From a virus, in IMG/VR virus record IMGVR_UViG_3300010430_000339, positions 1 to 30,362 of that record: a DNA stretch of 30,362 bases. One strand, written 5' to 3'. The notes beneath the pieces are model-generated. The model had not been told where the DNA came from. It saw only the letters and a program-made list of their open reading frames with translations, and did no database searches. Position 1 is the first letter of the stretch; every line of letters begins with the position of its first letter. Shown piece by piece: positions 1,818 through 10,213 of this stretch. The translations under genes and the position numbers were made by a program.

Positions 1818-2153
1818 TTACCTCAAGGATTCATGGAACCAGATGTGAAATTTAGGACCGTCGTGCCCCTTTCTAAGACAGTAATCAAAAACTTCACCTG
1901 CAGCATCATAGTTTTCATCTCCGAAAATGAGATTGTGACTTCCCTTACTGAGAGGGAATCCGTATCCTCTATTCAGAGAATCAATTATCTGCTGTTGTGA
2001 GTATCTAAAGTCGTAACTAATCATCTGGCCACGCAAGTCTGTGCCCATATATAAATGTTTCACAAATTCATCTGCGGTCAAAATATCAACGCGAACATCA
2101 ATCATGTAAGACGTCGATGAACTATTAGTCACGAAATCCGCTTTCAGTTTCAT
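1818..2153 (-). CDS. DFVTNSSS-tagged protein 1
   Basis: This 111-aa protein starts MKLKADFVTNSSSTSY, the fifth copy (in transcription order) of the N-terminal peptide also found at 5528-5953, 5965-6333, 6615-7019 and 6988-7404. After the tag comes a hydrophobic strand (MIDVRVDI), a helical middle and a C-terminal part containing EVFDYCLRKG and a final strand KFHIWFHES. EVFDYxLR also occurs in tagged protein 2 (5528-5953), so the bodies are probably remote homologues. The start lies inside the end of the upstream membrane-protein gene (29-base overlap) and lacks a strong ribosome site, suggesting translational coupling. Function unknown. Confidence 0.75.
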   Translation of the reverse strand: MKLKADFVTNSSSTSYMIDVRVDILTADEFVKHLYMGTDLRGQMISYDFRYSQQQIIDSLNRGYGFPLSKGSHNLIFGDENYDAAGEVFDYCLRKGHDGPKFHIWFHESLR

Positions 2154-2520
2154 TTATTTCCATTACCCCCAAGTCCATGAGAAACACCAGTGCCTTTCTG
2201 AACCTGAGACAGATCCAGAGGGCAACAACATTAGCCATTACATCGCCAAACATTGCAGAAAAAACTGCTAACATTGAAATCAAAGTAACTGTTGTGATTG
2301 TGAGATTAACGTGTGTTGATTCGTAAGGTGGTCGAAATACTATAAGTGCTATTGTAAGATAGAAAAACCAAATCATAAAGTATGCAAATCGACCGTTGAG
2401 TACTATCGGATAAAGAAAAAGTACACTGATGCTAAGTAGGTATAATGGCGTATTTTTTACAAAAGATTTTGCTATATCTAGATGATCTATTTCGTCCCAC
2501 CAATATTTTTTAAGATACAC
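2125..2520 (-). CDS. Multi-pass membrane protein, unknown
   Basis: This 131-aa protein starts at GTG 2520 (MYLKKYWWDEIDHLDIAKSF). GGAGG lies 7 bases upstream, whereas the longer open frame runs back through the terminator-like hairpin and even the OmpA gene's end, so it is not the real start. Hydrophobic segments at about residues 25-43, 48-64, 70-88 and 90-103 predict three or four membrane helices. The C-terminus (RKALVFLMDLGVMEINETESGFRD) overlaps the start of tagged protein 1 by 29 bases. No family recognised. Confidence 0.65.
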   Translation of the reverse strand: MYLKKYWWDEIDHLDIAKSFVKNTPLYLLSISVLFLYPIVLNGRFAYFMIWFFYLTIALIVFRPPYESTHVNLTITTVTLISMLAVFSAMFGDVMANVVALWICLRFRKALVFLMDLGVMEINETESGFRD

Positions 2521-2538
2521 TACATCACCTCCCTTTAG

Positions 2539-2625
2539 AAAAAAAATTGTGCCCGAAGCGAAATAACCAGTTTTCCTTCCTCTTTTGGAGGCTGGGGTCT
2601 GACTGGTCAAATCAACTCCGGGCAC
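2539..2625 (-). terminator. Structured terminator or small RNA downstream of the OmpA-like gene
   Basis: On the minus strand a 10-bp stem (GTGCCCGGAG with CTTCGGGCAC, 2616-2625 with 2549-2558, one G-U pair) encloses an 8-bp stem (TGACCAGT with ACTGGTTA, one G-U pair). Inside that is a short CCTC/GAGG hairpin. The outer stem is followed after AA by eight Ts (2546-2539). It lies 26 bases after the OmpA-like stop codon, so intrinsic termination is the simplest role. The 77-base body is much larger than an ordinary terminator and could be a separate RNA. Confidence 0.7.
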
Positions 2626-2650
2626 ACTGTCAACTACCTCCTGGTAGTCT

Positions 2651-3367
2651 TTACTCGTACACAATTATTTCAACTCGACGATTTTTCTGTCGATTGAAGG
2701 GGTTGTCTCTTCCATCCACTCTATTGGGGACGCTGGGAAAGAGTTTTCCCTGAGCCTTAATTGAGTGAATTTGGGAATCATTTACACCCTTCTCAGTGAG
2801 ATACCTTACGGCCGAATCGGCACGCCTCTTTGAGAGACTGTTGTTATACTCGTCTGAACCAATCGAGTCAGTATTACCAAGAATAACAACTTTGGTATCG
2901 GGATTGAGTATCATATCCTCAGCCACTTTATCCAGAACCTCAGCCGCATCTGGTCTGATGTTGGACTTGTCAAAGTCAAATAATGCATTGTCCCAACTAA
3001 GCACGATAGGTGCTGCTTCTTCAACAACAACTACCTCCTCCAAACACTCACAGGCTTCTTGTGCCTTGGCAAGAGCTTGCTTAAGCATGTCAAATGCCTC
3101 TGCACTACGACATTCTGTCCACGCGTTATAAGCATCACCCTTTAACTTCTGCGCCGCGTTATAGAGGTCAGGACAATTCCTCAAACCATTCTCCTCACAC
3201 TCTTTCAGTTTTTCCTCAACCTCAACCAGAGCGTTCGTGAAACCCTGGTTTTCCATTTCCGTTGAGTAAACCTGAAGTGGTTGTTCCGGGGCCTTTGCCT
3301 GCTGCGCACACGCCACTGGTAGAACCAGTACAATTGCCAGTAAAATCAATGATAATTTCCTCACCAT
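2651..3367 (-). CDS. Exported OmpA/Pal-type peptidoglycan-binding protein
   Basis: This 238-aa protein has an N-terminal signal sequence (MVRKLSLILLAIVLVLPVAC, residues 1-20). Cleavage could follow ACA at residue 21 (signal peptidase I), or C20 could be a lipobox Cys with an imperfect -3 residue. A helical linker with Cys at about 57, 65, 86, 106 and 108 follows. Residues 120-238 form an OmpA C-terminal domain: FDFDKSNIRPDA, GNTDSIGSDEYNNSLSKRRA, YLTEKGV and NRRVEI. This family binds peptidoglycan non-covalently in the periplasm or outer membrane. AAAGGAGG precedes the ATG by 9 bases. Its presence among phage genes is unusual; envelope modification, superinfection exclusion or a lysis role are possible inferences. 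Confidence 0.85.
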   Translation of the reverse strand: MVRKLSLILLAIVLVLPVACAQQAKAPEQPLQVYSTEMENQGFTNALVEVEEKLKECEENGLRNCPDLYNAAQKLKGDAYNAWTECRSAEAFDMLKQALAKAQEACECLEEVVVVEEAAPIVLSWDNALFDFDKSNIRPDAAEVLDKVAEDMILNPDTKVVILGNTDSIGSDEYNNSLSKRRADSAVRYLTEKGVNDSQIHSIKAQGKLFPSVPNRVDGRDNPFNRQKNRRVEIIVYE

Positions 3368-3387
3368 GTCTTAATTCCTCCTTTCAA

Positions 3388-4536
3388 TTACTTGTTTTCA
3401 CCCAACAAGAATCTGAACTTTACCTCTCCTGTTACGTTAAGATTTAGGTCAACCCTTCTGCCTACAGCGTTGAGAATTTCAGCGAGTGTATCAGCCGCTC
3501 CCTTAGCTACTTTCTCAACACCCTCCCTAACCTCTTCTTCCAATTTTTTCAGAGATTCATCAATTTCATCCACTTCATCAGTTTTCACTTCTTCAGGTTC
3601 GACCTCAAGTGGTGCCTCTACAATTGGTTCTACTTTCTTATCGAATTTCGGACCACGTTTGTAGAACTCTTTAACAAATTCTTCAGAATTCTCGAAGCGG
3701 ACGAATTTCATATTAACTCTGCGTCTGTACTTCTTTTGTTTTCCGACTCCGATGTTTTCGATGATCATTAGATCGTGCATCCGGGTATCAATTCTTGAAA
3801 CTAAACCTGATGATGAGTGAAGAGTGATACCAAGAGCCTCGGCTACATCTGAGGACTCAACCCAACCCTCATCACCTCCTGCAATACTCTTTGCATAGAT
3901 GAACCTTAAAGCTCTCTGCATTGCATCTCTTGTTTTGGTTGATTTCGGTTCAATTGGTTTCGGTTCAGTTGGTTTCGGTCTTACTTTAACTCTCCTCTTT
4001 CTTTTCTTGCCACTACGACGATAGTACTCTTCAACGAATTCCCTTGCACTACTGAATGGACAGTCGTCTTTCATTTGTCTCAAGATCTTCTTGTTGTCTA
4101 GCTTCAGCTCGATAAACTCGTGCATCTTCTTGCTGATAATAGTCAATAGTCCGGATGTTGAACTCCTAGGAATATCCAGATGCTTGGCGACGTCTTCAGT
4201 GCCTATCCATTTTCCAGTCTTATGGGTTTCGTCAAAGAGGAAAGCTAAAGCTCTCATTGTTCTTTCTGATCTTTTATTTTCAGCCATTTGTATTTTCCTC
4301 TTGAATGTGTAATCGTTAACTTCCTCTCGGCTTAAAAGTCTAACTGCACTTCGTTTTCCCCTCCTTCCTGTTCCTTTTATGTATTTAGGTTTTACACGCT
4401 TCTTGCACTTGCCCATAATTCGCAAATCTTCTTCCACTGATTCTACTACTTCATTGGAAATTACGGGCAGGTTGATTGGATCAAGTGGCATACCCTCATA
4501 ACTAATGCCTTCTAAATTTGGAATCTTTTTTTTCAT
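3388..4536 (-). CDS. Duplicated winged-helix DNA-binding protein (candidate regulator)
   Basis: This 382-aa protein carries two copies of one unit. Copy 1 is at about residues 90-177: RTMRALAFLF, then WIGTEDVAKHLDIPRSSTSG with helix-turn-helix character, then AREFVEEYYRR. Copy 2 is at about 204-297: DAMQRALRFIY, WVESSDVAEALGITLHSSSG, SEEFVKEFYKR. A Lys/Pro linker (PKPTEPKPIEPKST) joins them. The N-terminus is basic and the C-terminus has an acidic helix followed by a strand-rich tail (VDLNLNVTGEVKFRFLLGENK). Two wings in one chain would let a monomer bind a direct or inverted repeat. GAGGAG is 7 bases before ATG 4536. A structured leader (4574-4705) precedes it, so its expression may be controlled at RNA level. 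It is likely a phage transcription factor. Confidence 0.75.
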   Translation of the reverse strand: MKKKIPNLEGISYEGMPLDPINLPVISNEVVESVEEDLRIMGKCKKRVKPKYIKGTGRRGKRSAVRLLSREEVNDYTFKRKIQMAENKRSERTMRALAFLFDETHKTGKWIGTEDVAKHLDIPRSSTSGLLTIISKKMHEFIELKLDNKKILRQMKDDCPFSSAREFVEEYYRRSGKKRKRRVKVRPKPTEPKPIEPKSTKTRDAMQRALRFIYAKSIAGGDEGWVESSDVAEALGITLHSSSGLVSRIDTRMHDLMIIENIGVGKQKKYRRRVNMKFVRFENSEEFVKEFYKRGPKFDKKVEPIVEAPLEVEPEEVKTDEVDEIDESLKKLEEEVREGVEKVAKGAADTLAEILNAVGRRVDLNLNVTGEVKFRFLLGENK

Positions 4537-4573
4537 CCCTGCTCTCCTCTAGTAGGGGGGGAAGAAAAGAGGT

Positions 4574-4705
4574 TACAATCCTTGTTTTTGACCACAAAGG
4601 TGTGGACCTCCGGCCACAGCTATCCTCCATTCATGCACGTTTTAAGACTGATCTGCAAAAGTTTTCCGGTACGACCAGATTCAAGTCTTTCCCCACAGGA
4701 TTGTA
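4574..4705 (-). promoter_or_regulatory. Structured 5' leader of the winged-helix gene
   Basis: The non-coding stretch 4537-4776 upstream of the winged-helix gene folds well on paper. A 9-bp closing stem pairs AGGATTGTA (4697-4705) with TACAATCCT (4574-4582). Inside are AAGACT/AGTCTT (4644-4649 with 4684-4689) stacked on ATCTG/CAGAT (4651-4655 with 4676-4680), and a CCACA-AAGG-TGTGG hairpin (4592-4605). I do not recognise a named riboswitch. It could be an autoregulatory site, an attenuator or an independent RNA. A short T-rich stretch (TCTTTTCTT on the minus strand) follows the closing stem, too weak to call a terminator. Confidence 0.45.
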
Positions 4706-4776
4706 GGCGGGACAGAGGAGCTTCGTACCAACCACCTAAGGTGAGAGGTAAAGGGTGGCAGCTGGGGAATAAACTG

Positions 4777-5571
4777 TTAGTCGAGGAATGTTACGCCAGC
4801 ATTCCAACGTCCTTCAAATTCTCGATTCATTATAACGAGGTGCCAACCTCGGAGTTTAACAGTTTTGTGATCTGGATGACTGACTGTACCTCTTGCATAA
4901 ACGCTATTCACTCTGACCATCTCTTGCATAATCTTACTACCATCTTTATTTAAACGACCTGTTTCAACGAGAGCTGTACTTGAACCTGTTGTCCTTATAA
5001 TCTCTGAGACCATATGGGGTGTACCGCCCATTCGACCACGAACCATCCTAACTAAAGGTTCGTTTGTGTGAATGAAATAATTTTGCCTATCAAAATCTGG
5101 TTGAGGAATAAAGTACCATTCTCCCTGTCTTATAACTTTTGCACCCCTCCTTTCCGCTTCTCTGACAGGATTTCTTTTTAAGCTCTCAATAGCTTGCTCA
5201 ACGGTCGTTATTTGAGCATCGCTTGGTAGACTTGCGATAAAGTATTCCCTCTCATCATGACCACAGAGGAGACGATCAAAAATACCTGGTTCATTCTCGA
5301 CTCCAAGTACAACATGACGTGTCTCAGGTCGATGTGAGAGAATCCTTATACGCTCATGGTTATCAATAAAGAGGATAAACTTTTCAATCTTCTTTCGTGG
5401 ATTGCGAATAATGTCAAAAGCGAAATCTGGATCTGGATCACCGCCTCTAATACTTCTTATCCTTCTGTTCCAGGCATTCTCAGCCTCACCTCTGTCATTA
5501 TGAATATCAATTTCGAGGTTGCACCTTTCAAAGTGTTTCTCCAACACTTTCTTCCAGTGGTCGTACCGCAT
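4777..5571 (-). CDS. Conserved phage protein of unknown function
   Basis: This 264-aa protein starts at ATG 5571 (MRYDHWKKVLEKHFE), chosen because AAAGGA lies 6 bases upstream; the frame is open further back. Features are LLCGHDEREYFIASLP in the middle, RQGEWYFIP near residue 170, and a C-terminal part with VYARGTVSHPDHKTVKL and GWHLVIMNREFEGRW. I recall phage proteins of unknown function sharing RQGEW(F/Y)F(I/V)P and a HPDHxT...W motif. The His/Asp pattern might bind metal, but this is a guess. It overlaps tagged protein 2 by 44 bases and is the last gene before the structured leader. Confidence 0.75.
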   Translation of the reverse strand: MRYDHWKKVLEKHFERCNLEIDIHNDRGEAENAWNRRIRSIRGGDPDPDFAFDIIRNPRKKIEKFILFIDNHERIRILSHRPETRHVVLGVENEPGIFDRLLCGHDEREYFIASLPSDAQITTVEQAIESLKRNPVREAERRGAKVIRQGEWYFIPQPDFDRQNYFIHTNEPLVRMVRGRMGGTPHMVSEIIRTTGSSTALVETGRLNKDGSKIMQEMVRVNSVYARGTVSHPDHKTVKLRGWHLVIMNREFEGRWNAGVTFLD

Positions 5572-5953
5572 CTGAAATCCTTTCCATTTGGTTTTCGCTA
5601 AATTTGGCCAGTCTTTCTCTGATCTTATCAACGTGTGCTTCAATATTTACGATTACATATGGAGCACCAGCAGGAGTATCGACTTTCTGTATGATTACTT
5701 TTAACTCACCAAGAACTCTTAGAGTATAGTCGAATACTTCTGGACAGTCATCATACATATCTGAACTTATACTCCCATCCATTATAAGTGTATTAAATGA
5801 GTCGATAACATCATCTATGTGAACTCTTGAAGTATCGAGAATATTAGCATGTTCACGTATACTGAGGTAATTTTCAATCTTAAAATCATTTGGTAGAACA
5901 ACTATAAAATTAACGGACGAACTATTCGTCACAAAATCAGATTTGATTTTCAA
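5528..5953 (-). CDS. DFVTNSSS-tagged protein 2
   Basis: With a TTG start at 5953 this is a 141-aa protein beginning MKIKSDFVTNSSSVNF. GGAGG lies 5 bases before that TTG. The in-frame GTG at 5965 overlaps the ribosome site itself and would add four residues absent from the family, so TTG is preferred. After the tag, the body reads IVVLPNDFKIENYL, a helical middle, PEVFDYTLRVLGEL and a strand YVIVNIEAHVDKIRERL. It resembles tagged protein 5 (IMFPPEFNIQDHL and NIIVNIGMSKVLDKV), so these two are true paralogues. Function unknown. Confidence 0.75.
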   Translation of the reverse strand: MKIKSDFVTNSSSVNFIVVLPNDFKIENYLSIREHANILDTSRVHIDDVIDSFNTLIMDGSISSDMYDDCPEVFDYTLRVLGELKVIIQKVDTPAGAPYVIVNIEAHVDKIRERLAKFSENQMERISDAVRPLEESVGETL

Positions 5954-5964
5954 CTTTTCCTCCA

Positions 5965-6333
5965 CTATTGTGTGGATATTGATTCAAATTTAACATTCTT
6001 GAGTTTCATTAAAAAGAAATCTGACATGTCTGGGCTAACATTAATATGTTCCATAACTATGTGCTTCATATAATATGGAACATTATCATAGTCATTGAGC
6101 ATTGAAGTAGAGTCTTCCAACCTGAAGTTTCTATCATTGAGCATTATAATCGTAGGTTGAAAGAACCTCATATGCTTAAAATCGTTTCGGTAACTGTAAA
6201 CCCTCATCAGATTCTCCATGTACGCCCCAAAGAGATCAAAGAAACTATCGAGGGTAAAATCCTCTGTCATCTCCAGATACAGATAGAAATTTGCAGAGCT
6301 ACTATTGGTTACAAAATCAGCTTTTATTTTCAT
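5965..6333 (-). CDS. DFVTNSSS-tagged protein 3
   Basis: This 122-aa protein starts MKIKADFVTNSSSANF from an ATG. The tag is followed by a strand YLYLEM and an aromatic-rich body (FTLDSFFDLFGAY, FKHMRFFQPTIIML, DNVPYYMKHIVMEHI). The body is not obviously alike to the other tagged proteins except in having a hydrophobic strand right after the tag. The ribosome site is weak (GTAAGAG). The start overlaps the end of the zinc-ribbon gene by 17 bases: the upstream gene's terminal ENKS-stop is read from the same bases that encode MKIKAD. Function unknown. Confidence 0.75.
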   Translation of the reverse strand: MKIKADFVTNSSSANFYLYLEMTEDFTLDSFFDLFGAYMENLMRVYSYRNDFKHMRFFQPTIIMLNDRNFRLEDSTSMLNDYDNVPYYMKHIVMEHINVSPDMSDFFLMKLKNVKFESISTQ

Positions 6334-6634
6334 AATCTCTTACCCATACGCTATTGCGGCCCTCCTCATCCCAAACTCTCGTAAATATGTGATTACAATT
6401 AAAACATTTGACACAACTTGATAAACTTAAGTATAATATTCCCTTGACAGCTTTTTGTCCACAGTCAGGACACAGTCTCAAATCTGTTATTAGGTAAGTA
6501 AGTTTATCGTGCCCCATTACAAGTTTATCACATGGACTAGAACAGTTGGCATAAATTAGGCACTTGGGACATGGAAAACCTTCAGGTAATATCAATTCAA
6601 GTGGAAGAGGTATCTTACAGGTGAGGGAACTCAT
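6317..6634 (-). CDS. Small Cys-rich, zinc-binding-like protein
   Basis: This 105-aa protein starts MSSLTCKIPLPLELILPEGF at ATG 6634, with AAGGAG 7 bases upstream; a longer frame from 6694 has no such site. Cys pairs are CPKC, CSSPC, CPDC and CVKCFNC, enough for two zinc sites. GHDKLTYLITDLRLCPDCG and FNCNHIF form ribbon-like hairpins. It lies between tagged proteins 4 and 3 and overlaps both (20 and 17 bases). The arrangement parallels the zinc gene after tagged protein 1. Likely a protein- or nucleic-acid-binding accessory protein; function unknown. Confidence 0.7.
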   Translation of the reverse strand: MSSLTCKIPLPLELILPEGFPCPKCLIYANCSSPCDKLVMGHDKLTYLITDLRLCPDCGQKAVKGILYLSLSSCVKCFNCNHIFTRVWDEEGRNSVWVRDYENKS

Positions 6635-7019
6635 GTCCACACTCCTTGTAGTAGCTATCATCATTGTAACTATGATGTGGAAACATTTTGTCATCCATAT
6701 CAGAAACGGATTCGTCCCTTAGTACCCACACCACCCACTTATGTTTTGTTTCTTTAACATAGTGGAGAACGTGTGAGTACAGTTGTGATTGATAATCTTC
6801 TTCCACAACCCGATCTTTAGTATGCACAATGGCATCTATGTAGGCATGTATTGCTGCCCTAATGTGATCTGTGCTGTCCCACTCTCTACCATAGGACTCC
6901 AGATATGCCTGGGCCTCCTCCTTTGTGTATATGGTATCTGGATCTTTGTAATATTTCTTCCAGTTGATGATAAAAGCAGTTGAACTGCTATTTGTCACGA
7001 AGTCTTGTTTTATCTTCAA
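6615..7019 (-). CDS. DFVTNSSS-tagged protein 4
   Basis: With a TTG start at 7019 this is 134 aa, beginning MKIKQDFVTNSSSTAF. GGAGG lies 5 bases upstream. The frame can be read from another TTG at 7031, but that one overlaps the ribosome site. After the tag comes the strand IINWKKYY, helices (EEAQAYLESYG, DHIRAAIHAYIDAIV, YSHVLHYVKE), a strand HKWVVWVL and a His/Tyr-rich tail (MFPHHSYNDDSYYKECGHEF). The His/Cys tail could bind metal. It overlaps tagged protein 5 by 32 bases. The body does not look closely related to the other copies. Function unknown. Confidence 0.75.
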   Translation of the reverse strand: MKIKQDFVTNSSSTAFIINWKKYYKDPDTIYTKEEAQAYLESYGREWDSTDHIRAAIHAYIDAIVHTKDRVVEEDYQSQLYSHVLHYVKETKHKWVVWVLRDESVSDMDDKMFPHHSYNDDSYYKECGHEFPHL

Positions 7020-7404
7020 TGAGTCCTCCAATCTCCTTTACTTTATCAAGGACTTTAGACATTCCGATATTTACTATAATATTGTTACCTTCGTGGGGTA
7101 TATCATACTCTGCTACTGTAAACTTAAGGTCTGTACAAATATCTAACACAACCCACATATAAATTCGACCCTCTTTCCACAAGTGTTCAACTATACATCC
7201 CTTCTGAAGAAGTACTTCAAAGAAATGTGTTATTTTTTTTACATCTAACTCAAGGTCTTGACCTATTGTGTAATGCTCGAATCTATTAAAAATTCCTCCC
7301 TTTTCCAGCATTGACAGATGGTCTTGTATATTAAATTCTGGTGGGAACATAATAACATAACAGGCAGAAGAACTGTTAGTCACAAAGTCAGCTTTTATTT
7401 TCAC
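6988..7404 (-). CDS. DFVTNSSS-tagged protein 5
   Basis: With a GTG start at 7404 this is 138 aa, beginning MKIKADFVTNSSSACY. GGAGGAG lies immediately upstream with 5 bases of spacing. The frame extends to an ATG at 7428, but that would put eight unrelated residues before the tag. The body starts VIMFPPEFNIQDHLSML, has a helical middle, a strand MWVVLDICTDL and ends NIIVNIGMSKVLDKVKEIGGL; this matches tagged protein 2. It is the first tagged gene after the radical SAM and GNAT genes and overlaps the GNAT gene by 17 bases, sharing the same ENKS-stop overlap as tagged protein 3. Function unknown. Confidence 0.75.
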   Translation of the reverse strand: MKIKADFVTNSSSACYVIMFPPEFNIQDHLSMLEKGGIFNRFEHYTIGQDLELDVKKITHFFEVLLQKGCIVEHLWKEGRIYMWVVLDICTDLKFTVAEYDIPHEGNNIIVNIGMSKVLDKVKEIGGLIEDKTRLRDK

Positions 7405-7774
7405 TTCGCTCCTCCGGAAATCTAACAACTACGTGCTCTGTCACTTCAAAGAATCCGTATTTCCCAAACCACTCTTTCAACTCCTCTAAATTCATTCGGC
7501 CATAGGGATTTATTGAGTTGATAATTGCGACTCCTCTCTCATCACAAATTTCAACCAATCGTTTCATCATGACTGTACCATGACCCTTTCCTTCTTTTAC
7601 TGCTTTTATTCTGTGAAAAAAGAATAAAGGGTATGGACACTCCACATCATGTCCTAATAGAAACTCTTTGTGCTTCTCCATGCCAACTACTGAAAGTTCG
7701 CAGATTCCCCTATTGTTAGTGGATATGCAGATAACTTCATCATTAATTATTTCATGAGCTATCTCTGGTTTCAT
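7388..7774 (-). CDS. GNAT-family N-acetyltransferase
   Basis: This 128-aa protein has the GNAT acetyl-CoA-binding segment KEGKGHGTVMMKRLVEIC at about residues 60-77 (Q/RxxGxG/A type). The preceding strand is PLFFFHRIKAV, and the usual C-terminal part follows (GVAIINSINPYG, EWFGKYGFFEVTEHVVVRF). The family transfers an acetyl group to an amine on a small molecule, peptide or protein; the substrate is not evident. Start ATG 7774 has AAGAGGAG 6 bases upstream. It sits between the radical SAM gene and the first tagged gene and overlaps the latter, so acetylation of a tagged protein is a possibility, not a demonstrated one. Confidence 0.8.
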   Translation of the reverse strand: MKPEIAHEIINDEVICISTNNRGICELSVVGMEKHKEFLLGHDVECPYPLFFFHRIKAVKEGKGHGTVMMKRLVEICDERGVAIINSINPYGRMNLEELKEWFGKYGFFEVTEHVVVRFPEERSENKS

Positions 7775-7786
7775 GCTTGACTCCTC

Positions 7787-8788
7787 TTAAAAATCGTATG
7801 GACACCTTTCTTTGTTCTCCTCCAACATTTGTCTGGTTTCCACAAATGCATGACTTAATTTCCATGCATCCTCAATTGACATATCTTTGAGGGATATTCC
7901 ATACTTATCCTTGTCTGCAAATGAGCATGGCATCAACATCATGTCTGGACTTATGTAACATGACATACGAGCAGCCTCACAAGTATCAAGAAACATCTCC
8001 TCCATCTTAGTTAGAGTTGTGGTTTGTGTAATTCGATTGACTAGGCAAGAGTCCATGCCGATTTTGAAGTTTGTGTTATTCTCCAATCTCAGACTAATGA
8101 ACTCTTTCAAATCTTCATTTGTCAATGCCCAGTCTATTAGTTTTTTGCCCCTCCCTTGAGGTTTGAACAATAAGAAAATGACAGCATTTAGTCTGTCTAA
8201 ATTAATCTTTCTATCCCAAACATCCTCACCTTTGAGGATATTTACTGCTTTACCTAGAGATTCTTTAGACAAAAGGAAGTGTAGATTTGTCTTTATATCA
8301 GAATCCATGAGTCTTTGTAAAGCGCCAAATGTGAAATCCTGACCGTAATCTGATACTGCGACAGCCCCACACATCTTTGATATCTCGATGTGTTCGCTTG
8401 TCAGATCTAACCCTGAGGTTGTGTAATTGGGGACAACGACATTTTCCCGAGCATAACCAACAATCTCTCCAAAGTTTTCATGCAGGTTTGGGTCCCCCCT
8501 TCCACCTAGAGCTACCTGATTTGTATAGGTTTTAGATTCATCCATTATCTTCCTGAAGTCCTCAAGTTTCATGTTTGGTTGCTCTTCCCCACCTTGATAG
8601 CAAAACTTACACTTGTTTGGACAATGACCCATAATCCCAATGTCAATTAGATTTGGATAGTCCAGCATGAAAGGATCAGGAAAACCATGTTTTCCAAAGA
8701 TGATCTCTTTACCATTTGCTACATTAAAAATAATTACATACCTACCCGTCTCAACAATTTTCTTCATTCCAACCATTCGTGCAACCAT
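7787..8788 (-). CDS. Radical SAM enzyme with SPASM/twitch-like C-terminal cysteines
   Basis: This 333-aa protein has the radical SAM cluster motif CPNKCKFC at about residues 56-63 (CxxxCxxC), preceded by the strand LIDIGIMGH. A GGRGDPN segment near 95-101 fills the place of the GGEP motif. The C-terminal third has further cysteines (near 247, 269, 276, 287 and 328, including TCEAARMSCYI, MLMPCSF and a final ERCPYDF), and AWKLSHAF resembles SPASM/twitch domains, which hold auxiliary iron-sulfur clusters. Many such enzymes modify peptides or proteins. AGGAGG precedes ATG 8788. It lies upstream of GNAT and four tagged genes in one operon. The substrate is unknown; the tagged proteins are the obvious candidates by position only. 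Confidence 0.85.
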   Translation of the reverse strand: MVARMVGMKKIVETGRYVIIFNVANGKEIIFGKHGFPDPFMLDYPNLIDIGIMGHCPNKCKFCYQGGEEQPNMKLEDFRKIMDESKTYTNQVALGGRGDPNLHENFGEIVGYARENVVVPNYTTSGLDLTSEHIEISKMCGAVAVSDYGQDFTFGALQRLMDSDIKTNLHFLLSKESLGKAVNILKGEDVWDRKINLDRLNAVIFLLFKPQGRGKKLIDWALTNEDLKEFISLRLENNTNFKIGMDSCLVNRITQTTTLTKMEEMFLDTCEAARMSCYISPDMMLMPCSFADKDKYGISLKDMSIEDAWKLSHAFVETRQMLEENKERCPYDF

Positions 8789-9418: not shown

Positions 9419-9508
9419 TTATTCAACTTATTAATGAATCTGACCATCCCATTTATTACATAGCAAAGAACAAATAATAAATGCCAACTATCCATGGAGA
9501 TAGCGCGA

Positions 9509-10213
9509 ATGATGTTAAGAAGAGTTATCGAGCAACTAACCGCTGGTGGCCCAAGAGCAGGGGTCGGCAGTACAGATGCTTGTACTTGTGAAAACAAGAC
9601 GTGCGAGTTATTTGGGAAGCCAGTTTCCCGACAAGAAAATATATCATGTCCAGTGATGAAGTGTACCTCTTGTGGTCTCTCACTGGTAAGTATTGAGGAT
9701 GTTGGAAGTAGATATGAGCAAAGGATTTTAAATAAAATAATATCCAAAGTTAAAGAGTATGAATCTATTTTTCCTATGGACTGGCCGTATGAGAAGAAAA
9801 AGAGGAAAGTCCTTCGTGTCCCTTATCCGAATGAGCAGGCTGGTATGAAAAAGAAGAATATTTTAGTTGACCTCGACAGAACACTTCACCAGTACTCTAA
9901 GGGTTGGTCAGATGGAACAGTATACGATCCGCCCATAGCAGGGGCACGAGAAGCAATGAATGAGTTAAAAGAAAGGGGATACGAGATTGTAATCTTTTCG
10001 GCAAGGACAGGAAAGTCTAGGCCCGAATGGAAGAAACAAGAGCGAATGGTGAAAGAGTGGCTTATCAAATATGATATTCCATTCGATATGATAACTAGTG
10101 AGAAGTTACCGGCTGAATTTTATATTGATGATAGAGCAGTCAGATTTGAAGGCAACTGGGCTGCGACTTTACAGGTGATAAAACATTTAGAATCAATAAT
10201 ACAGATTGACTAA
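9509..10213 (+). CDS. Zinc-ribbon plus HAD-type phosphatase-like protein
   Basis: This 234-aa protein starts at ATG 9509 (GGAGAT 7 bases upstream); the in-frame ATG at 9494 has no ribosome site. Residues about 25-55 hold six Cys (CTC, C, C, C, C: DACTCENKTCELF and SCPVMKCTSCG), a likely zinc site. From about residue 118 comes a HAD domain: ILVDLDRTLHQYSKGW with the DxD nucleophile/acid pair, IVIFSARTG as motif II, and KLPAEFYIDDRAVRF with the acidic motif IV. Phage HAD proteins of this kind are usually phosphatases acting on nucleotides or nucleic-acid ends; the substrate here is unknown. It opens the tail operon, 12 bases before the tail-tube gene. A separate internal start before the HAD part has only a weak site, so one fused protein is likely. 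Confidence 0.75.
   Translation: MMLRRVIEQLTAGGPRAGVGSTDACTCENKTCELFGKPVSRQENISCPVMKCTSCGLSLVSIEDVGSRYEQRILNKIISKVKEYESIFPMDWPYEKKKRKVLRVPYPNEQAGMKKKNILVDLDRTLHQYSKGWSDGTVYDPPIAGAREAMNELKERGYEIVIFSARTGKSRPEWKKQERMVKEWLIKYDIPFDMITSEKLPAEFYIDDRAVRFEGNWAATLQVIKHLESIIQID

Follow-up and report, generated by a model that had tools for sequence, protein, structure and literature searches.

A DFVTNSSS N-terminal tag co-encoded with a radical-SAM enzyme in phages and bacteria: a candidate protein-modification system

Most knowledge of radical S-adenosylmethionine (radical-SAM) peptide maturases comes from small natural products, and the substrates of two such enzymes, SuiB and SkfB, are leader/core precursors. 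Here, we analyse a virus record of 30,362 nucleotides (IMG/VR record IMGVR_UViG_3300010430_000339, positions 1 to 30,362; hereafter the window, 30.4 kb), which has tailed-phage structural genes in its list of open reading frames (ORFs). Five minus-strand genes of the window with differing bodies begin, from the start codon, with the shared peptide [M/L/V]K[IL]KxDFVTNSSSxx[FY], termed the tag, and a radical-SAM gene lies close by. The tag is probably a portable recognition site for a dedicated enzyme of the radical-SAM/SPASM type, which is encoded together with the tagged genes and most likely modifies the tag.

SuiB (the streptide maturase of the KxxxW system; PDB 5v1q, 5v1s and 5v1t) and SkfB (a sactisynthase; 6efn) are the best profile and fold matches of the enzyme. 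As in those systems, a radical-SAM core is combined with an Fe-S C-terminal region and the gene adjoins that of the presumed substrate. In contrast to their short precursors of ribosomally synthesised and post-translationally modified peptides (RiPPs), the conserved element here is N-terminal on folded proteins of about 80–670 amino acids, and the tag has no conserved cysteine or tryptophan. The locus thus shares with RiPP pairs a maturase co-encoded with a protein bearing a conserved sequence, recognition itself being predicted, but not a short precursor that releases a variable core peptide, as the tagged proteins have a median length of 138 amino acids and include leucine-rich repeat (LRR) and BRCT bodies.

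The nearest concept is provided by the VMAP-ternary NTPase conflict systems, in which FxSxx peptides, with the motif in the C-terminal peptide, are paired with a radical-SAM/SPASM enzyme (PMC7159879). In both arrangements, a protein with a short conserved motif and a radical-SAM/SPASM enzyme are co-encoded in a conflict system based on an NTPase, whereas DFVTNSSS is N-terminal and is also present in phages and outside NTPase operons. The NTPases of tag-bearing operons resemble Avs (AVAST) proteins in matching Avs2 models and in their variable N-terminal domains; they differ in that most of those sampled are about 830–1050 amino acids long (one has 1343) against about 1400–1600 for the models, and in the additional genes for a tagged protein and a radical-SAM enzyme. 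In phages, the T4 capsid-targeting sequence is a short N-terminal peptide common to otherwise different internal proteins. The tag differs from it in sequence, in having a radical-SAM partner and in not being confined to phage heads.

The PHROGs library holds a tag-containing family (phrog_7397) and a family of the enzyme (phrog_7293), both of unknown function there, and its output records no link between them. Text searches with the peptide string and with the pairing of enzyme and phage found no description, although subscription journals were thinly covered and novelty is not proven. The tag and its enzyme would constitute an apparently undescribed protein-modification system common to phages and bacterial anti-phage immune operons. 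A radical-SAM maturase co-encoded with its substrate is a known arrangement; what would be new is an N-terminal tag borne by many folded proteins of unrelated kinds.

Selection, spread and modularity of the tag

The five tagged genes lie where the original prediction had placed them, at 1818–2153 (copy 1; tag at 2100–2153), 5528–5953 (copy 2; 5900–5953), 5965–6333 (copy 3; 6280–6333), 6615–7019 (copy 4; 6966–7019) and 6988–7404 (copy 5; 7351–7404), with the start codons ATG, TTG, ATG, TTG and GTG, respectively. A Shine-Dalgarno-like GGAGG is situated a few bases 5′ of precisely the tag start codon in copies 2, 4 and 5. On re-reading, the serine codons previously given for each copy matched exactly, and the suspected body similarity of copies 2 and 5 proved genuine (a single family by hidden Markov model (HMM) clustering, 28% identical). 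Copies 1, 3 and 4 each belong to a separate body family, with 12 members for copy 1 and 6 for copy 4; the EVFDYxLR string reported for copies 1 and 2 is present in both, yet these two do not form one HMM family. Searches of the five proteins against Pfam, NCBIfam and PHROGs gave only weak matches to phrog_7397, chiefly over the tag, and 33 of 113 sampled tagged proteins match the same family.

The original prediction mentioned similar N-termini in other uncharacterised proteins, and they are indeed widespread. IMG/VR and GTDB genomes were searched with a DNA pattern encoding MKxxx[DN]FVTNSSS, in which F7, V8, T9 and N10 were fixed and S, T, C, R, W or a stop was tolerated at residues 11–13; the resulting counts are lower bounds. 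Phages, archaea and a wide range of bacterial phyla together yielded at least 464 non-identical tagged proteins, whose bodies form 101 clusters; Firmicutes, Bacteroidota, Deltaproteobacteria, Coriobacteria, Thermoplasmatales, Lokiarchaeota and methanogens are among the matches listed. The reversed pattern gave 0–1 matches over hundreds of genomes, and the occurrence of the tag far exceeds chance. Direct tblastn searches of phage records with copy 2 and with the bare tag yielded no matches.

Serine occupies positions 11 and 12 in 369/369 and position 13 in 364/369 of the distinct pattern matches listed, encoded by AGY and TCN codons about equally. Because residues 7–10 were fixed by the pattern, their conservation must be read from the loci collected by searching for the enzyme first; these were gathered with a relaxed tag expression and so provide a weaker conservation test. 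In this set, T9, N10, S11 and S12 are invariant (62/62), position 7 is phenylalanine in 58 and tyrosine in 4, and D6 is present in 53/62. The general form of the tag is MK[I/V][K/R]xDFVTNSSSxS[FY][IV], and information content drops sharply after residue 18. It is the peptide itself that is under selection. The earlier argument for long selection at the peptide level is supported by the mixed serine codons, the low third-position identity and the many body clusters. Recent duplication is ruled out by a third-position identity of 0.28–0.56 in the tag region among the window copies, and an RNA or DNA element, that is, a signal at the nucleotide level, is rejected because about half of the serine codons are AGY and half TCN.

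The tag is a separable, portable module. The attached bodies include BRCT, BspA-type LRR and ferredoxin-like types, and the majority have no Pfam match. The body family of copies 2 and 5 comprises 44 tagged and 24 untagged ORFs (19 non-redundant), the latter with unrelated N-termini and all in loci that carry the radical-SAM enzyme. Untagged homologues of this kind, with a different N-terminal extension and the enzyme gene in the locus, are found at L303, L009, L316 and L042, among others. Some body clusters are remote homologues of each other; bacterial cluster 1 and phage cluster 9, for instance, have a body-only profile match of 95.6%.

An AlphaFold2 model of copy 3 predicts a folded alpha/beta domain after the tail, with residues 1–10 at pLDDT below 50 and strand 1 starting from residue 12, so that the tag would consist of a floppy tail and the opening residues of a strand. 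A Foldseek search with this model returned generic ferredoxin-like alpha/beta matches only, none with E below 1e-3. The original prediction had considered that the tag might turn out to be the first strand of one domain shared by all five bodies. A small part of this holds, in that residues ~12–18 are predicted to open the first beta-strand, and the remote homology among some body clusters points in the same direction. However, residues 1–10 are conserved though predicted to be disordered, and a single fold for all bodies is ruled out by the BRCT and LRR domains among them, by body clustering and by the copy 2/5 homologues that exist untagged with another N-terminus. It is thus scarcely credible that the tag is strand 1 of an ancient common fold and that the enzyme acts on something else.

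A hydrophobic, alanine-rich, signal-peptide-like stretch follows the tag in L156, L320, L321, L329, L337 and L216, and L216 adds a lipobox-like ILASC. This suggests that in L320, L216 and their relatives the tag may act prior to export.

Coupling to a radical-SAM enzyme and predicted chemistry

Clustering of neighbouring ORFs, a check of the shared neighbours of tag matches that had been proposed at the outset, revealed one recurring untagged family, a radical-SAM enzyme, in 144 loci among the matches listed; none of the other untagged families comes near this number. In the window, its gene occupies 7787–8788 on the minus strand and had been absent from the original prediction. The tagged gene closest to the enzyme gene in bacterial loci is mostly 0–37 bp away (median a few bp), and the two are co-stranded in 74/76. 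A search of IMG/VR that started from the enzyme, blind to the tag, found tags at 57/78 new viral loci, with 141/141 tags of the scan on the strand of the enzyme gene.

Genome censuses gave the same picture. In the phylum of G001 (299 genomes), the enzyme is present in 9 genomes and the tag in 9/9 of these, 8 by the pattern and one (L327) with a TTG start, outside the phylum pattern search, next to the enzyme; the tag is found in 0/290 genomes lacking the enzyme, by a pattern without TTG starts. With the seed removed, this amounts to 8/8 against 0/290 (Fisher 7e-16). In the family of G010 (250 genomes), 6 have the enzyme and 5 of these have tags, 4 by the pattern and G821 with three variant tags, MK[IV]CLDYVTNSSSSSF; the exception is G742, in which the enzyme is frame-broken and no tag was seen near it. 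Tags occur in 0/244 genomes of this family without the enzyme, by a pattern that left out the G821-type variant. Over both censuses, seeds excluded, tags are present in 12/13 bacterial genomes with the enzyme and 0/534 without it. A census of Bacteroidota was uninformative, since the seed genome alone has tag or enzyme and the other pattern match was spurious, with an in-frame stop. Conversely, starting from the tag, the enzyme was detected in 25/27 viral records above 100 kb and elsewhere in 18/20 genomes whose tag locus was without it, a total of 43/47 genomes or large phage records. Tag and enzyme are therefore coupled in both directions, and nearly obligately so. Among the roles originally suggested for the peptide, this coupling strongly favours a recognition tag or modification site.

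The window enzyme has the three-cysteine radical-SAM motif (CX3CX2C in its cluster; CX7CX6C and other spacings in relatives), the core fold and SPASM-like cysteines towards the C-terminus, and it matches Pfam Radical_SAM above the cutoff (2.1e-7). Bacterial members match SPASM (PF13186, TIGR04085). The best NCBIfam equivalog scores only 45.7 bits where the cutoff is 500, so that the window enzyme corresponds to no named NCBIfam radical-SAM maturase; other members of the alignment match the same equivalogs at modest E-values only. A profile search of the PDB ranked SuiB (2e-12) and SkfB (4e-10) first, followed by PqqE and the anaerobic sulfatase-maturating enzyme (anSME). Likewise, an AlphaFold2 model of the enzyme (pLDDT 86, pTM 0.87) has SuiB (2e-13) and SkfB (1e-10) as its top fold matches, at 12–16% identity in the structural alignment. 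SuiB, SkfB, PqqE and anSME are enzymes that modify peptides or proteins. All 15 enzymes sampled match phrog_7293. In the viral records G888, G901, G902 and G880, TAG or TAA lies within or at the end of the radical-SAM match, which suggests stop-codon recoding, stop overlap or disrupted copies.

The presumed substrates have nothing in common but residues 1–18, and the one partner that they constantly have is a radical-SAM enzyme resembling peptide maturases; on the simplest reading, this enzyme would bind the tail and alter a residue of VTNSSS. The flexible residues 1–10 would insert into the enzyme, and a 5′-deoxyadenosyl radical would take a hydrogen within VTNSSS, which is invariant. The outcome would be an oxidised serine or a crosslink inside the peptide, or else the peptide would be cleaved. 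The altered N-terminus could then change the folding, anchoring or partner binding of the attached protein, with the tag as a maturation handle and the body giving the specific job, be it as phage accessory protein, component of STAND-NTPase defence or partner in an ABC-transporter operon. Positions 11 and 12 are strictly serine, never threonine or cysteine though the codons are free, which suggests chemistry at or next to a serine. An oxidation such as sulfatases undergo during maturation would fit, for instance, as would crosslinking with the conserved aromatic residue at position 7 or 16.

Alternatively, the tag could merely dock the enzyme as a RiPP-style leader, with the modified residues elsewhere in each body. 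Coupling of tag and enzyme would be expected here too, and the fold relatives SuiB and SkfB do work on leader/core precursors. This is nevertheless unlikely, as no conserved residue or motif is found past position 18 over the 101 body clusters, the bodies are large folded domains, and the invariant serines suggest chemistry within the tag. Operonic coupling would equally be expected if the tagged proteins were cofactors or regulators whose tails plug or activate the enzyme while remaining chemically unaltered. With several tagged proteins of unrelated bodies per enzyme, and with enzyme relatives that modify peptides, such a role is still less probable than that of a leader.

Modification of the tag by the enzyme thus remains the favoured explanation. 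Enzymes with CX7CX6C go with Arg4 (52/55) and those with CX3CX2C mostly with Lys4, the RB43/D479-type enzyme goes with GFVSNSSSSSF tags, and a Mantel test of enzyme–tag co-variation gives r 0.20 (0/5000 permutations). The Lys4/Arg4 co-variation is consistent with enzyme–substrate co-evolution. Several points weigh against this explanation. Common descent confounds the Lys4/Arg4 pattern, gene coupling by itself does not tell a substrate from a functional partner, and binding of the tag, its modification, the residue altered and the effect on the protein are inferred. The enzyme has a truncated C-terminus in the window and other phage members, with most SPASM cysteines gone. Furthermore, 21 viral records of 5–41 kb, probably fragments, have the enzyme and no tag on the contig, and two tagged viral records above 100 kb and two metagenome-assembled genomes have no detectable enzyme. 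No shared alternative tag was seen in the five viral records with enzyme and without tag that were inspected (L255, L279, L280, L297 and L303).

If correct, the proposal would describe a general N-terminal modification tag on about 100 body families of phages, bacteria and archaea, with a partial link to immune NTPases. Hundreds of ‘hypothetical proteins’, two PHROG families of unknown function among them, would gain a partner that can be tested, and the enzyme could serve as a new handle on folded proteins. The cultured coliphages RB43, which carries the system, and Lw1 allow a direct test in laboratory Escherichia coli.

Genomic contexts and neighbouring genes

The body family of tagged proteins tracks genomic context, while the tag stays constant. 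In phages, up to six tags lie inside 8 kb among the matches listed. About 170 cultured-phage records have the enzyme, mostly of Pseudotevenvirus (RB43, Lw1, Miller, GAP161 and KP27); RB43 and Miller have two tagged proteins each and Vibrio phage D479 has five. The RB43 enzyme is CCK74014.1 and its Lw1 homologue AGJ71568.1; CCK73964.1 and CCK73969.1 are tagged proteins of RB43. The link to RB43 was reached only via the enzyme.

Of 87 bacterial radical-SAM loci, at least 19 encode an Avs2-like STAND NTPase together with the tagged protein and the enzyme, and the tagged protein of these immune-type operons usually belongs to body cluster 1 (15/17). The variable N-terminal domains of the NTPases are of the trypsin, PNP_UDP, DUF4062, TIR-like and SMEK types; STAND NTPases with such N-terminal effector domains belong to the bacterial operons and not to the window. 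On an Agrobacterium plasmid, genes for a SMEK-NACHT NTPase, a tagged protein and the enzyme are consecutive, and annotation indicates a similar arrangement on Rhizobium and Rhodobacter plasmids. With the tagged protein and the enzyme, such an NTPase forms a candidate undescribed defence operon. An Avs2-like STAND NTPase beside a tagged protein, usually with the enzyme, is seen at L129, L132, L146, L168, L197, L199, L215, L229, L340 and other loci, and one N-terminal arrangement in these loci is trypsin plus metallo-beta-lactamase.

In a tentative and rather doubtful reading, the tag would be a cross-domain modification code in phage–host conflict. Hosts might use a radical-SAM modification at the tag to mark a small sensor or effector protein of these short STAND-NTPase operons, and phages, with an enzyme of their own, might deploy tagged proteins that mimic, titrate or disarm it; some phage bodies are remotely homologous to immune-associated ones (the clusters 1 and 9 mentioned above).

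Nine loci are operons with ABC-transporter genes, in which the tagged protein mostly belongs to cluster 3, and further contexts include LRR and BRCT bodies. Tagged protein and enzyme lie beside ABC-transporter genes at L125, L155, L184, L206, L211, L212, L216, L235 and L238, some of which also encode a permease and a solute-binding lipoprotein.

These contexts bear on the third role originally suggested, a packaging signal. A short N-terminal peptide in several copies per phage genome could be imagined to target proteins for packaging or assembly into a virion or other complex, with the enzyme just part of the same pathway. However, the tag is tied to the radical-SAM enzyme rather than to capsid genes, and it also occurs in archaea and in plasmid and chromosomal STAND-NTPase and ABC-transporter operons. 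A packaging signal is disfavoured because these plasmid and chromosomal operons have the look of defence or transport operons, not of phage structural regions, and the occurrence in bacteria and on plasmids speaks against a capsid-targeting role of the T4 type in particular. We consider targeting, packaging or assembly very improbable.

Several other genes of the window were noted. Between the enzyme gene and the tagged genes, a minus-strand ORF of 128 amino acids (7388–7774) looks acetyltransferase-like by eye only; Pfam and NCBIfam scans of it gave no match. Beside copy 1, a MqsA/YgiT-type zinc-finger protein is encoded at 1523–1813 on the minus strand (PF15731, 5.6e-7, barely over the cutoff). 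By eye, the minus-strand gene at 2651–3367 has a lipoprotein-like signal and an OmpA-like C-terminal region, which is odd for a phage genome. Finally, the plus-strand gene at 9494–10213 has a PNKP-like HAD phosphatase region (PF25109, 7.8e-5, under the cutoff), and similar genes recur near the tag loci of other viral contigs.

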